Positions 38,535 to 43,656 of a stretch of DNA of 64,000 nucleotides are shown piece after piece. Made by a program: the position numbers and the translations under genes. How positions within the stretch are numbered: the stretch's first letter is position 1; every line of letters starts with the position of its first letter. The stretch is from Cognatishimia activa (GTDB lineage: Bacteria > Pseudomonadota > Alphaproteobacteria > Rhodobacterales > Rhodobacteraceae). The notes below the pieces were generated by a model. The model did no database searches and had not been told where the DNA came from. It saw only the letters and a list, made by a program, of their open reading frames with translations. The DNA is taken from positions 1,896,501 through 1,960,500 of the forward strand of contig NZ_CP096147.1 in NCBI RefSeq assembly GCF_026016445.1. The letters are read 5' to 3'.

Positions 38535-39365
38535 ATGAAACACCTCGCAATTGCCTTCGCTCTGATGGCTTCCACTGCCAACGCATGGGAAATCACCGGG
38601 TTTGAACATCCTGAATCCATCCTCGCAGACGCTTCCAACGAACAGCTTTATGTATCCAACATCGTTGGTCACCCGGCTGAGGCAGATGGCGTTGGTTATA
38701 TCAGCCTGGTTTCCCTTGATGGCAAATTCATTGACCAGAAGTGGTCTACAGGCATGGACGCCCCGAAAGGCATGGCGCTCTTTGGCGACAGCCTCTTGGT
38801 CTCTGACCTCACCAAGTTTCATGTCATCGACCGCACCAGCGGTGAAATCACTCAGACCTTCGCACCCGAAGGCGCGGCCTTCCTCAACGACATCGCGGCA
38901 TCAGGTGATCGCGCCTTTATCTCGGACATGTTCACAGGAGTGATCTACAGCTTTGATGGCAAAGAGGTCACGCCGTTTTATTCTGCGGCAGACTTGCCCC
39001 ATCCAAACGGACTTTGGACCGACGGCGTGACCTTGGTGATCGGCCATTGGGGACCGGGGATGCAGCAAGACTTCTCGACAGAAAAACCGGGCGATTTGCT
39101 TGAGGTGAATATCGCGACCAAAGAGGCCAATACAATCGTCTCCGAGTTAGGCAACCTGGATGGCGTAGCCAAAACAGCAGAAGGTTTCATCGTGAACGAT
39201 TGGATGAACGGAAAGATCTTCTCCGTTGTTGAAGGTCAGGCCACCGAGGTTCTGCAAATGCCGCAAAGCACAGCGGACATCACGGTTTTGGGCGATACGA
39301 TCTACATGCCGCATATGTTTGAAAACCGCATCAGTACGGCAACACTTGAAACTGTGTCTAATTAA
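38535..39365 (+). CDS. Periplasmic beta-propeller protein, SMP-30-like
   Basis: A 276-residue protein with a signal peptide (about residues 1-17, ending TANA) and repeated propeller blades: the pattern EQLYVSNIVGHP, DSLLVSDLTKFHVI, DRAFISDMFTGVIYSF, and similar later blades. The fold resembles SMP-30/gluconolactonase proteins, but the metal-binding residues are not assured, so enzymatic activity is not claimed. It is divergent from the XRE regulator and overlaps the convergent DUF2161 gene by four bases. Confidence 0.8.
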   Translation: MKHLAIAFALMASTANAWEITGFEHPESILADASNEQLYVSNIVGHPAEADGVGYISLVSLDGKFIDQKWSTGMDAPKGMALFGDSLLVSDLTKFHVIDRTSGEITQTFAPEGAAFLNDIAASGDRAFISDMFTGVIYSFDGKEVTPFYSAADLPHPNGLWTDGVTLVIGHWGPGMQQDFSTEKPGDLLEVNIATKEANTIVSELGNLDGVAKTAEGFIVNDWMNGKIFSVVEGQATEVLQMPQSTADITVLGDTIYMPHMFENRISTATLETVSN

Positions 39366-40006
39366 GACTGGCTTCTGGCGAGTCCTTCAGGGCTCGCCGC
39401 ATAAACACCGCGCTCAACCTTGTTGAACCAGCCATAATGGTTGTCACGCATAATAGCGGTGGCGGAAGGCGCGCCTGCCCCTTTCGCCACATCAGCGCCT
39501 CGGCTCGCGCCATGTTCGATCACAAATGCCAAACACCGCTCGGCTTCCTGCTGATAACCGGTAACGATCTTGCCGTTTGTGCCGCCGAGGTTCGGGTCGC
39601 CCACCCTACGGCTGAACTCTTTCAGCAAGGCCCCCTTGCGGGGTTTTGATTTTCGCGGACGGAACTCCGCTGGGTCTGCATGCACGTGGATCGTCTGATC
39701 TGCCAGATTCACTGAAATCACACCAACACCAAGCCGTTTACACAGCCCAACATTGGCTTTGAAAGACCGCCACGCCGATTTACCCTTCCAACGAGGCACG
39801 GCTACGTAAACCCAGTCCGACAAGCGCTGGCGCGCGATGGCTTGTTGTAACAACGTCAGAGAAAACCCAATTTTCAGCTCGACAATGACCGGGTCTTCAT
39901 CCGCCCGACAGGCCACGACATCCGCCGCGCCGACCTCCGCCTTAACGTCAAACCCCTGCCCCTCAAGCCAGGCCTTCACCGGACCATATAACTCGGTTTC
40001 TTTCAT
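39362..40006 (-). CDS. DUF2161 family protein, PD-(D/E)XK nuclease-like
   Basis: A 214-residue cytoplasmic protein. The N-terminal part, KAEVGAADVVACRADEDPVIVELKIGFS, has the D-x(n)-ELK arrangement of PD-(D/E)XK nucleases, with the Asp near residue 29 and ELK near 43. The C-terminal half includes YGWFNKVERGVYA, suggesting a DNA-binding wing. DUF2161 is described as a putative phosphodiesterase; no target is known. It could act in repair or restriction (inference). ATG 40006 gives the conserved MKETELYGPVK start. Confidence 0.82.
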   Translation of the reverse strand: MKETELYGPVKAWLEGQGFDVKAEVGAADVVACRADEDPVIVELKIGFSLTLLQQAIARQRLSDWVYVAVPRWKGKSAWRSFKANVGLCKRLGVGVISVNLADQTIHVHADPAEFRPRKSKPRKGALLKEFSRRVGDPNLGGTNGKIVTGYQQEAERCLAFVIEHGASRGADVAKGAGAPSATAIMRDNHYGWFNKVERGVYAASPEGLARSQS

Positions 40007-40028: not shown

Positions 40029-40067
40029 CCTGCCCGGCATCAAGCATCGATGCTTGTGCCGGGCAGG
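40029..40067 (-). terminator. Long hairpin between the small basic protein and DUF2161 genes
   Basis: A nearly perfect 19-bp inverted repeat (CCTGCCCGGCA plus CAAGCATC against its complement, one bulged T) centred on 40048. There is no long T-run on either side. It may be a terminator, a transcript-stabilising structure or a REP-like element. Confidence 0.55.
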
Positions 40068-40073
40068 ATCAGA

Positions 40074-40250
40074 CTAGCGACCTCCTGTACGCCCCGGGAA
40101 GAGTTTGGGACGTCCGCCAGCCGAAAGCTGAGACTTCGCACCTCCCAGATGGTGTTTCGGTGCAGGTTTCACGGGTGATTTCAACGCTGGCTTCTTAGGC
40201 ATAAGAAGACCAGCGCCGCGCTTGCGCGCAGGTTTTTTGGATTTGGGCAT
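40074..40250 (-). CDS. Small highly basic protein, 58 residues
   Basis: A 58-residue frame rich in Lys, Arg, Pro and Gly: it opens MPKSKKPARKRG and ends GGRPKLFPGRTGGR. There are 10 Lys and 6 Arg, no acidic residue and no Cys, so it is strongly positive and probably unstructured. AGGGGG lies six bases before ATG 40250, a good ribosome site. Its base composition fits the neighbourhood. It may bind nucleic acid or ribosomes (inference); I recognise no family. It is followed by a long hairpin and preceded by two tandem micro-ORFs on the same strand. Confidence 0.65.
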   Translation of the reverse strand: MPKSKKPARKRGAGLLMPKKPALKSPVKPAPKHHLGGAKSQLSAGGRPKLFPGRTGGR

Positions 40251-40313
40251 AATAACCCCCTGAATGAAATGGTAGTTTTCTGCGTAAAAGCAGATGCTAT
40301 GCGCCCGCAGGCG

Positions 40314-40331
40314 TTAGCTGGTCTTGTCCAT
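40314..40331 (-). CDS. Micro-ORF 2 (five codons: MDKTS)
   Basis: ATG-GAC-AAG-ACC-AGC-TAA preceded ten bases upstream by GAGGAG. It is the second of two near-identical units and is followed by CGCC-TGCG-GGCG and CTGC-N6-GCAG hairpins, then the 58-residue gene. Translation is not proven; it could instead be a leader or ribosome-binding decoy. Confidence 0.35.
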   Translation of the reverse strand: MDKTS

Positions 40332-40358
40332 TGTCAGGGTGCTCCTCTGAAAAGGTGG

Positions 40359-40372
40359 GGCGTAGATACGCC
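40359..40372 (-). other. Palindrome between the two micro-ORFs
   Basis: GGCGTA-GA-TACGCC, a 14-base near-palindrome in the spacer of the duplicated unit. It could form a small hairpin in RNA or be a protein site. Confidence 0.4.
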
Positions 40373-40387
40373 AAAGTCGATGACGGC

Positions 40388-40405
40388 TTACTGAGCTTTG
40401 TCCAT
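40388..40405 (-). CDS. Micro-ORF 1 (five codons: MDKAQ)
   Basis: ATG-GAC-AAA-GCT-CAG-TAA with AAGGAG nine bases upstream, 53 bases after the oxyR stop. Its SD-to-stop segment resembles micro-ORF 2: AGGAG, ACCCTG, CAATGGACAA in the same order and spacing. The copies differ in later codons, which suggests an old duplication. Confidence 0.35.
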   Translation of the reverse strand: MDKAQ

Positions 40406-40457
40406 TGGCAGGGTCTCCTTTTCAGATGCCTCACCCTAGCCAGCAGATATGCGGAGG

Positions 40458-41375
40458 TCAAACGCCTTCCTCAAAGTGCCAACGCTGGGTTTCACCGATC
40501 TCTTTCAGAATTTCCGCGAGGCCTTTGAGCTGTTGTTCCAGAGGGTTGGTTTTCCGCCAGATCATGCCAATGGTGCGTTTCGGTGTAGCGTCCTGAAACT
40601 GGGCCAGTGAAACGGATGTGCCGCGCCGTTCCAAAGGCACCGCCATCTCAGGGATCAGCGTCAGCCCAAGGCCCGCGTCGACCATCTGCACAAGCGTCGC
40701 GAGAGATGATCCTTCCATCAGAAGGCTCGGATCAGATTTCTTGATGTCACAGAAAGAAAGCGCCTGATCGCGGAAGCAATGCCCCTCTTCCAGAAGCAAC
40801 AATTTCATTTCCTGCAATTTCTTCGGGCTTGGTACGGGTTTATCGGCGTCCTGGGCAGCGCGAACCAGAATGAATTCCTCATCAAACAGAGGAAATTCCT
40901 GAAAGGCGGGCTCTGACACCGGCAAGGCCGCCACAATGAAATCCAACCGTGAATGTCGCAGATCTTCCAGCAAAGTCTGCGTCACCGCTTCTCTGGGGCG
41001 CAGCTCAAGGTCAGGCAGTTCGTCGGAGAGGCCCCGAATAAAAGCAGGCAATAAATACGGCGCAATCGTTGGAATAACCCCCATGCGAAGCGTGCCTTTG
41101 ATCGGCCCTTCTGACAATCGTGCGAGGTCCCCCATGGCCTCCACCTCAGTCAGCACTTTGCGCGCCCGCACAAGGAACTCTTCGCCCAAGGTCGTCAGCC
41201 TGATCTGGCGCGCGGTGCGTTCCACCAGCGGCGCCTCCATCATGGCCTCTAACTCTTTGATCTGAACCGAAAGCGCGGGTTGGGAAATCGAACAGGCCTC
41301 AGCCGCACGACCAAAATGCCCATGCCGCGCCAGCGCATCAAAATAGCGGAAATGTTTGAGGGTGAAGTTAATCAT
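40458..41375 (-). CDS. oxyR: Hydrogen peroxide-inducible regulator OxyR
   Basis: A 305-residue LysR-type regulator with an N-terminal helix-turn-helix (HFGRAAEACSISQPALSVQIKELE cut across residues 20-43). The redox-sensing pair C200 and C209, in GHCFRDQ and SFCD, is spaced nine apart, as C199-C208 of E. coli. Peroxide oxidises them to a disulphide and turns on targets. It is divergent from katG, its classical target, with about 100 bases between. Confidence 0.95.
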   Translation of the reverse strand: MINFTLKHFRYFDALARHGHFGRAAEACSISQPALSVQIKELEAMMEAPLVERTARQIRLTTLGEEFLVRARKVLTEVEAMGDLARLSEGPIKGTLRMGVIPTIAPYLLPAFIRGLSDELPDLELRPREAVTQTLLEDLRHSRLDFIVAALPVSEPAFQEFPLFDEEFILVRAAQDADKPVPSPKKLQEMKLLLLEEGHCFRDQALSFCDIKKSDPSLLMEGSSLATLVQMVDAGLGLTLIPEMAVPLERRGTSVSLAQFQDATPKRTIGMIWRKTNPLEQQLKGLAEILKEIGETQRWHFEEGV

Positions 41376-41436
41376 AAGCCACAGTTATCAGAGGCAAAGG
41401 ATTTTTCAATTGGAGATTATCGACTTCACCACTTAG

Positions 41437-43656
<2,220 letters not shown>

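Follow-up and report, generated by a model that had tools for sequence, protein, structure and literature searches.

Two reading frames of only five codons, each with its own ribosome site (SD), lie in tandem ahead of the gene for a small basic protein, and the question raised by this locus is what such frames could do there. On the minus strand of the window, by which we mean the whole 64,000-nucleotide stretch analysed, the initial annotation had read AAGGAG-N9-ATG leading into MDKAQ-TAA and GAGGAG-N10-ATG leading into MDKTS-TAA, with the two starts 74 bases apart and a 58-residue basic frame as the next start. Each of these readings was confirmed in the sequence, and the 58-residue frame contains 11 K, 5 R and no D or E. 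To this description our analysis adds a promoter at a fixed position, a covarying helix (P1), a second pairing that extends to the main ribosome site (P2), a hairpin after the second start (H2) and the spread of the whole arrangement as a cassette. We consider it an even prospect that this region forms the 5′ leader for the small protein's message and acts as a translational relay in which ribosome sites mask one another. The order in the window is oxyR-like gene, promoter-like element, micro-ORF 1, micro-ORF 2, 58-residue protein and DUF2161 gene (Table 1).

Table 1. Features of the leader and its surroundings in the window; SD1 and AUG1 belong to micro-ORF 1, SD2 and AUG2 to micro-ORF 2.
Feature	Position	Strand	Remark
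oxyR-like LysR regulator, upstream neighbour in the window	40458..41375	-	closest to OxyR, below the curated OxyR cut-off
Promoter-like element TTGACC-N17-TAGGGT	40433..40462	-	runs into the 3′ end of the oxyR-like gene, whose stop is at 40458
P1 5′ arm TCTGAAAAGG	40417..40426	-	takes in the first bases of SD1; the message is predicted to begin here
Micro-ORF 1, ATG GAC AAA GCT CAG TAA (MDKAQ)	40388..40405	-	five sense codons, 40/47 members
Near-palindrome GGCGTATCTACGCC	40359..40372	-	inside the P1 loop; not conserved
P1 3′ arm CCTTTTCAGA	40346..40355	-	ends at SD2
P2 5′ arm CACCCTGACAATGG	40328..40341	-	SD2-AUG2 spacer plus start
Micro-ORF 2, ATG GAC AAG ACC AGC TAA (MDKTS)	40314..40331	-	five sense codons, 43/47 members
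Hairpin H2 CGCCTGCGGGCG	40302..40313	-	begins at base +18 of AUG2
Hairpin TCTGCTTTTACGCAGA	40279..40294	-	downstream of H2, ahead of the main ribosome site; no clear conservation (mean z -0.35)
P2 3′ arm and main ribosome site CCATTTCATTCAGGGGGTT	40254..40272	-	
58-residue basic protein, C-terminal end GGRPKLFPGRTGGR	40074..40250	-	
DUF2161 gene (PF09929), flanking	39362..40000	-	motif downstream in 27/47 members

The cassette, composed of promoter, micro-ORF 1, micro-ORF 2 and a basic protein of 53-77 residues, recurs in Rhodobacteraceae. We identified 47 members with two micro-ORFs, spread over 26 genus labels and four named contigs, as well as a single degenerate member. A 231-base query detected its own locus and six other genomes among 198 family genomes, all six matching at unit 2; a second upstream unit and a small protein starting MP were present in every one of them, the exceptions in length being unit 2 of L003, without a stop after five codons, and unit 1 of L005, which has 11 codons. 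The first nine members came from the DNA search with the window and served as the basis of profiles R1, R2 and A4, which means that the 47 are not an unbiased sample. Profile R1 (unit 2, nine members) matched 22/394 family genomes, of which 19 were real by inspection and three (G249 contig 9, G261 and G314) were rejected as not being the cassette. The protein profile A4 (24 sequences) matched 39/394 family genomes, 24 of them within the membership cut-off of E up to 4e-4; among the other 15 the upstream region was inspected in L266 alone, where nothing was found. Five members were recovered by A4 alone (G349, G249, G050, G340 and G355) and are the least biased check of the two-unit leader, which four of the five carry. 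The wider profile R2 matched 31/292 genomes of the order; inspection of all but G858 showed the cassette in 27, single units in G249 contig 9 and G773, and nothing in G205. A search of 289 class genomes gave no convincing match outside the family: of four matches, two were to family members and two (G520 and G638) were near 21 bits without recognisable units. The plasmid search returned one chance-level match only, and a single pattern match on a viral contig (L318) was discarded as unrelated, its frame reading on into a long protein.

The leader follows the small protein rather than the flanking DUF2161 gene. By DNA search it is present in 2/9 genomes of the window's genus, and the DUF2161 loci of the other seven have no units. 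Among 100 DUF2161 loci scanned with R2, 98 were without the leader and the two with it are members; ten further DUF2161 loci and 7/8 same-genus loci lacked it as well, the eighth being member G297. Around the ppaC gene it was found in 8/80 contigs, counting R1 matches, with Silicimonas, Boseongicola and Rhodobacterales bacterium HKCCE2091 among the named members. No tandem leader without the small protein was seen among the matches inspected, and the small-protein profile found no further copy in the loci examined. The initial annotation had called for conservation in relatives that keep the flanking genes. In those with the flanking DUF2161 gene this expectation held where the small protein is kept and failed where it is missing, the leader then being missing too. 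The check in relatives favours a device wherever the small protein is kept, and the proposed link between a duplicated leader and this protein agrees with the two micro-ORFs in 47/48 members found.

Upstream of the cassette lies a divergent gene that we take, from its sequence motif, to be of the ppaC type (43/47 members), and a motif search detected DUF2161 downstream in 27/47. DUF2161, a putative PD-(D/E)XK family, occurs in 187/295 family genomes, usually once, and in 0/14 control genomes. In the window the cassette promoter overlaps the stop codon of the oxyR-like gene, whereas 43/47 members adjoin ppaC instead; the oxyR-like and catalase-peroxidase genes are divergent here (40458-43656). 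The small protein starts with MP in 45/47 members, has PG[RKG] near its end in 46/47 and a terminal R in 44/47, and its net K+R-D-E is 9 or more in 47/47. Its middle is not conserved, and a 14-residue C-terminal motif runs to the last residue. No relative was identified in Pfam, NCBIfam or PDB sequences, the one Pfam match (0.012) being at chance level. The protein of the cassette is a further small-protein family, one for which neither Pfam nor NCBIfam has a model.

The micro-ORFs are conserved in number, position and length. Exactly five sense codons are present in micro-ORF 1 in 40/47 members, in micro-ORF 2 in 43/47 and in both in 37/47, compared with a stop at codon six in 4/559 other SD-RTG sites of the same loci, a control in which ordinary gene starts are counted too. 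Because the members share ancestry, they do not represent 47 independent events. In ten of the 47 at least one unit has another length, the values being 3, 6, 6, 11, 11, 13 and 18 codons for unit 1 and 3, 4 and 9 codons plus one open frame for unit 2. An SD core precedes all 94 frames. Unit 1 starts with ATG in 44 members and GTG in 3, unit 2 with ATG in all 47, and each of the three stops is used (TGA 25, TAA 18 and TAG 4 in unit 1; TGA 30, TAA 14 and TAG 3 in unit 2). The start of unit 1 lies 60-101 bases from that of unit 2, which lies 67-105 bases from the main start with one outlier at 155. This longest distance belongs to L141 (G175), where a tandem-repeated 30-base piece with a hairpin stands between unit 2 and the main start. 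With short upstream frames that have an SD and a start and are conserved in relatives, the locus in this respect resembles a uORF-controlled translational leader. As the cassette shows, frames of five codons escape gene callers even where they are presumably functional.

Across cassettes the SD, spacer, start and second codon are conserved, while stop types swap and codons 4-5 drift. Asp occupies residue 2 in 32/40 five-codon frames of unit 1 and 41/43 of unit 2, Lys occupies residue 3 in 21/40 and 11/43, respectively, and residues 4 and 5 scatter. We found no conserved stalling residues as in nascent-peptide leaders of the erm or tnaC type, residues 3-5 varying widely, and no codon run typical of amino-acid attenuators, only GAC at position 2 being common in the 47 members. 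Given the drift of residues 3-5 and of the stop type, it is improbable that the peptide is read, and the pattern suggests that ribosome passage, rather than the peptide, does the leader's work. A generic ribosome site was rejected as the source of the pattern: SD, spacer and start together matched 16 times in 16 genomes, never more than twice in any one of them, and 11 of these matches lie in cassettes.

Several loci depart from the standard cassette. L003 (G158) is a degenerate member whose unit 2 has no stop at codon six, and G355 (L262) is another, with one single 20-codon frame; the two are natural tests of which part of the cassette is dispensable. In G773 (L298, 1480-1600) a single unit, GAGGAGTGCCCTGACA-ATG AAC ACG TAA, has TTGACA upstream and a gene downstream that we presume to be DHFR-like, and its start region pairs with a stretch ahead of the next start (fold z -2.98). 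This unit is possibly the same device in a one-gate form ahead of an unrelated gene. G249 carries the full cassette on contig 14 and, on contig 9 (L150/L295/L305), a single unit (MER-TAA) whose SD and spacer are the same and which by position overlaps the start of what is presumably a MoxR-like ATPase gene.

For the tests of promoter and pairing, 5 of the 47 members were dropped as redundant, leaving 42. TTGA is located 56-60 bases ahead of AUG1 in 38/42 members, compared with 0-2 of 42 at eight other offsets, and is followed by a -10-like hexamer in 28/42, albeit by a loose pattern. Usual promoter geometry puts the message start about 20 bases ahead of AUG1. Based on this fixed spacing, the message probably begins at the 5′ arm of P1, and in the window transcription would start near 40426.

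P1 emerged from a scan of 800 pairs of 18-base windows, in which pairing within a member's own leader was compared with pairing between leaders. The top pair by far (z -7.5) joined bases -28 to -11 of AUG1 with bases -28 to -11 of AUG2. Fifteen of the 800 pairs had z above +3, so that single z values near -3.5 are close to scan noise. In fitted windows the mean pairing energy of P1 was -12.30 versus -10.01 kcal/mol, a value reached by 0/10000 permutations, and an uninterrupted helix of at least 7 pairs (at most one G-U) was present in 19/42 members versus 7.0 expected. The arms differ between members yet match, as in TCTGAAAAGG/CCTTTTCAGA, CCTCTGCAA/TTGCAGAGG, TCAAAACAGG/CTTGTTTTGA and CCAAGCA/TGCTTGG. 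At the edges, the 3′ arm enters SD2 in some members and the 5′ arm takes in the start of SD1 in others. P1 is scant in L149, L168, L261, L297 and L300, where the longest run is 3-4 pairs, and the minimum-energy fold of L119 lacks it. In general, whole leaders fold no more stably than their shuffles (z -2.1 for L001, 0.2 for L006 and -0.3 for L119).

P2 would join the SD2-AUG2 stretch to the main ribosome site and may mask the latter. Its observed pairing was reached by 1/10000 permutations and its three supporting window pairs form one antiparallel register, yet it is weak by helix length, which is little above the control (5.60 versus 5.35; 6/42 members versus 3.9 expected); we regard P2 as moderately established. 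Two other pairings were rejected: that of unit 1 with the main ribosome site, for which 9900/10000 permutations leave no support, and that of the P1 3′ arm with the main site as a switch, reached by 1562/10000 permutations though it beats shuffled letters. H2, established to a similarly moderate degree, was found in 35/41 members versus 25.2 in shuffles (maximum 30), and the best hairpin after AUG2 begins at +18 in 21/42. In L148, L294 and L003, where the stop has moved, H2 stays at +15 to +18 of AUG2, which indicates that the start sets its position, close to where the leading edge of a ribosome would lie during initiation. The footprint of such a ribosome reaches about +13 according to one study (PMC8708949). 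After micro-ORF 1, on the other hand, hairpins are depleted (7/42 members versus 14.2 in shuffles). The 14-base palindrome stressed by the initial annotation is present, as 6-base arms round a 2-base centre, and is not conserved; folding in this stretch does not exceed shuffles across members (mean z 0.11; z below -1 in 4/42). Ribosome queueing, suggested along with it, was not supported. Rfam gave no match in the window at gathering score and none at E up to 1 in 40060-40470.

Based on these features, we propose the following course of events. P1, in which the opening bases of the message pair with a stretch that runs up to SD2 and partly enters it, would hold ribosome sites 1 and 2, and P2 would hold the SD2-AUG2 stretch together with the main ribosome site. 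A ribosome landing on micro-ORF 1 would open P1 and free site 2; a ribosome on micro-ORF 2 would then open P2 and free the main site. With a frame of five codons, the ribosome would stay on the opening spot for all its short life, with no long coding tail, and we propose that the frames are kept at five codons because this is about one ribosome's cover from start to stop. We infer from sequence that the micro-ORFs are translated and that ribosomes open the helices, and likewise the sign of the effect and the signal. A more speculative extension, to which we give only a small chance, is that the leader is a peptide-independent gauge of initiation capacity or ribosome release, in which two one-footprint gates in series, occupied together or in turn, free the main site and give a steep response to ribosome supply, the basic protein itself being a ribosome- or RNA-binding factor.

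Other readings account for parts of this pattern. Ribosomes on strong SDs near the 5′ end could guard the message against RNase, two units giving longer protection. The predicted message start at SD1 fits this idea, and so do the protection proposed for the two-codon frame of axe-txe and that exerted through ribosome binding by the six-codon esp mini-ORF, as described in PMC8708949; the same paper reports that translation of the esp mini-ORF was not needed. Binding alone, however, requires neither a stop at codon six nor covariation in P1 and P2, and we hold guarding to be unlikely, if a serious candidate. A stalling sensor, in which slow codons, a drug or slow release would stall the micro-ORF ribosome and so bring about a switch in the leader like that of erm or mgtCBR, draws on the resemblance of two frames and alternative pairing to ermB with its two leader peptides (PMC8274638) and on the likeness to the tandem attenuators of mgtCBR (PMC3641672). 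With free variation at codons 3 to 5 and a stop whose type also changes, only Met-Asp being nearly constant, no common codon or peptide is read, and this sensor seems improbable to us; a sensor of initiation or release in general is a possible variant.

The remaining alternatives assign the repeated blocks to something other than translation. If the repeated SD-spacer-AUGGAC blocks were bound by an antisense RNA or by an RNA-binding protein, for which the basic protein might itself be a candidate, the frames would be incidental; the spacer CCCUGACA is conserved at base level, and the downstream protein is strongly basic in all members. The codon-six stops, the use of all three stop types, the GTG starts and the length exceptions that still end in frame point instead to translation, and P2 fits most of the conservation seen in the unit 2 spacer, so that we judge a regulator site decidedly improbable. 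A small RNA with decoy ribosome sites, offered by the initial annotation as an alternative, explains less, since start, stop and length of the micro-ORFs are all retained. Attenuation of transcription at hairpins downstream of micro-ORF 2 would agree with the excess of H2 over shuffles and with terminator-like sites between unit 2 and the main start in 5/42 members (0.6 in shuffles), in some of which it is possible. Such sites are missing from 37/42 members, and no intrinsic terminator (hairpin plus U run) precedes the main gene on the minus strand in the window; as the general explanation, attenuation is very improbable. For a chance duplicate in a non-coding stretch, which the initial annotation had left standing, nothing speaks beyond the short frame length. 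Conservation excludes it (40/47 and 43/47 against 4/559; SD core 94/94), and we give it next to no weight.

Known bacterial uORFs mostly act through what they encode; here evolution keeps the number, length and position of the frames while the peptide drifts. The cassette is thus a natural test of whether pure ribosome occupancy, without a peptide or special codon, can regulate a gene. Minigenes of the lambda bar type share the minimal coding length and strong SD, but act in trans by tRNA depletion (peptidyl-tRNA drop-off), an unlikely role for frames of five codons encoded at a single site in the chromosome. The ermA leader, like that of ermB, has two leader peptides. As with the mini-ORF message stabilisers of axe-txe and esp, the SDs here are strong, but the frame is not single.

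PMC8708949 describes a two-codon minigene (mg2), without strong secondary structure, in the axe-txe operon, a six-codon mini-ORF in the esp (LEE4) message of E. coli and a two-codon minigene ahead of ler. In these cases, as presumably here, a minimal translated frame in the leader, preceded by an SD of its own, acts in cis on the next gene, and for esp the peptide is not needed; they are single frames as described there, whereas the cassette has two five-codon frames 60-101 bases apart, a covarying helix, a fixed promoter and family-wide conservation. In ermB (ermBL and ermBL2) two upstream frames and a downstream ribosome site masked by RNA pairing are likewise found, but the peptides are longer and have critical residues, according to PMC8274638, while here residues 3-5 drift and the length is fixed. 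The mgtCBR leader also has two short ORFs (mgtM and mgtP) with structures between them; these contain signal codons (Pro codons, adenines) and exert their effect on transcription (PMC3641672), whereas the cassette has no shared codons and no general terminator. The cassette was not described in the literature on leaders, mini-ORFs, ermA, DUF2161 and Rhodobacter small proteins, as covered by titles and abstracts with few subscription journals. Single cis-acting micro-ORFs and leaders with two longer uORFs are already known from the sources above. What appears to be new, judged against literature titles and abstracts, Rfam and protein libraries, is a leader with two conserved five-codon frames in which length rather than peptide is kept, joined by a covarying helix.
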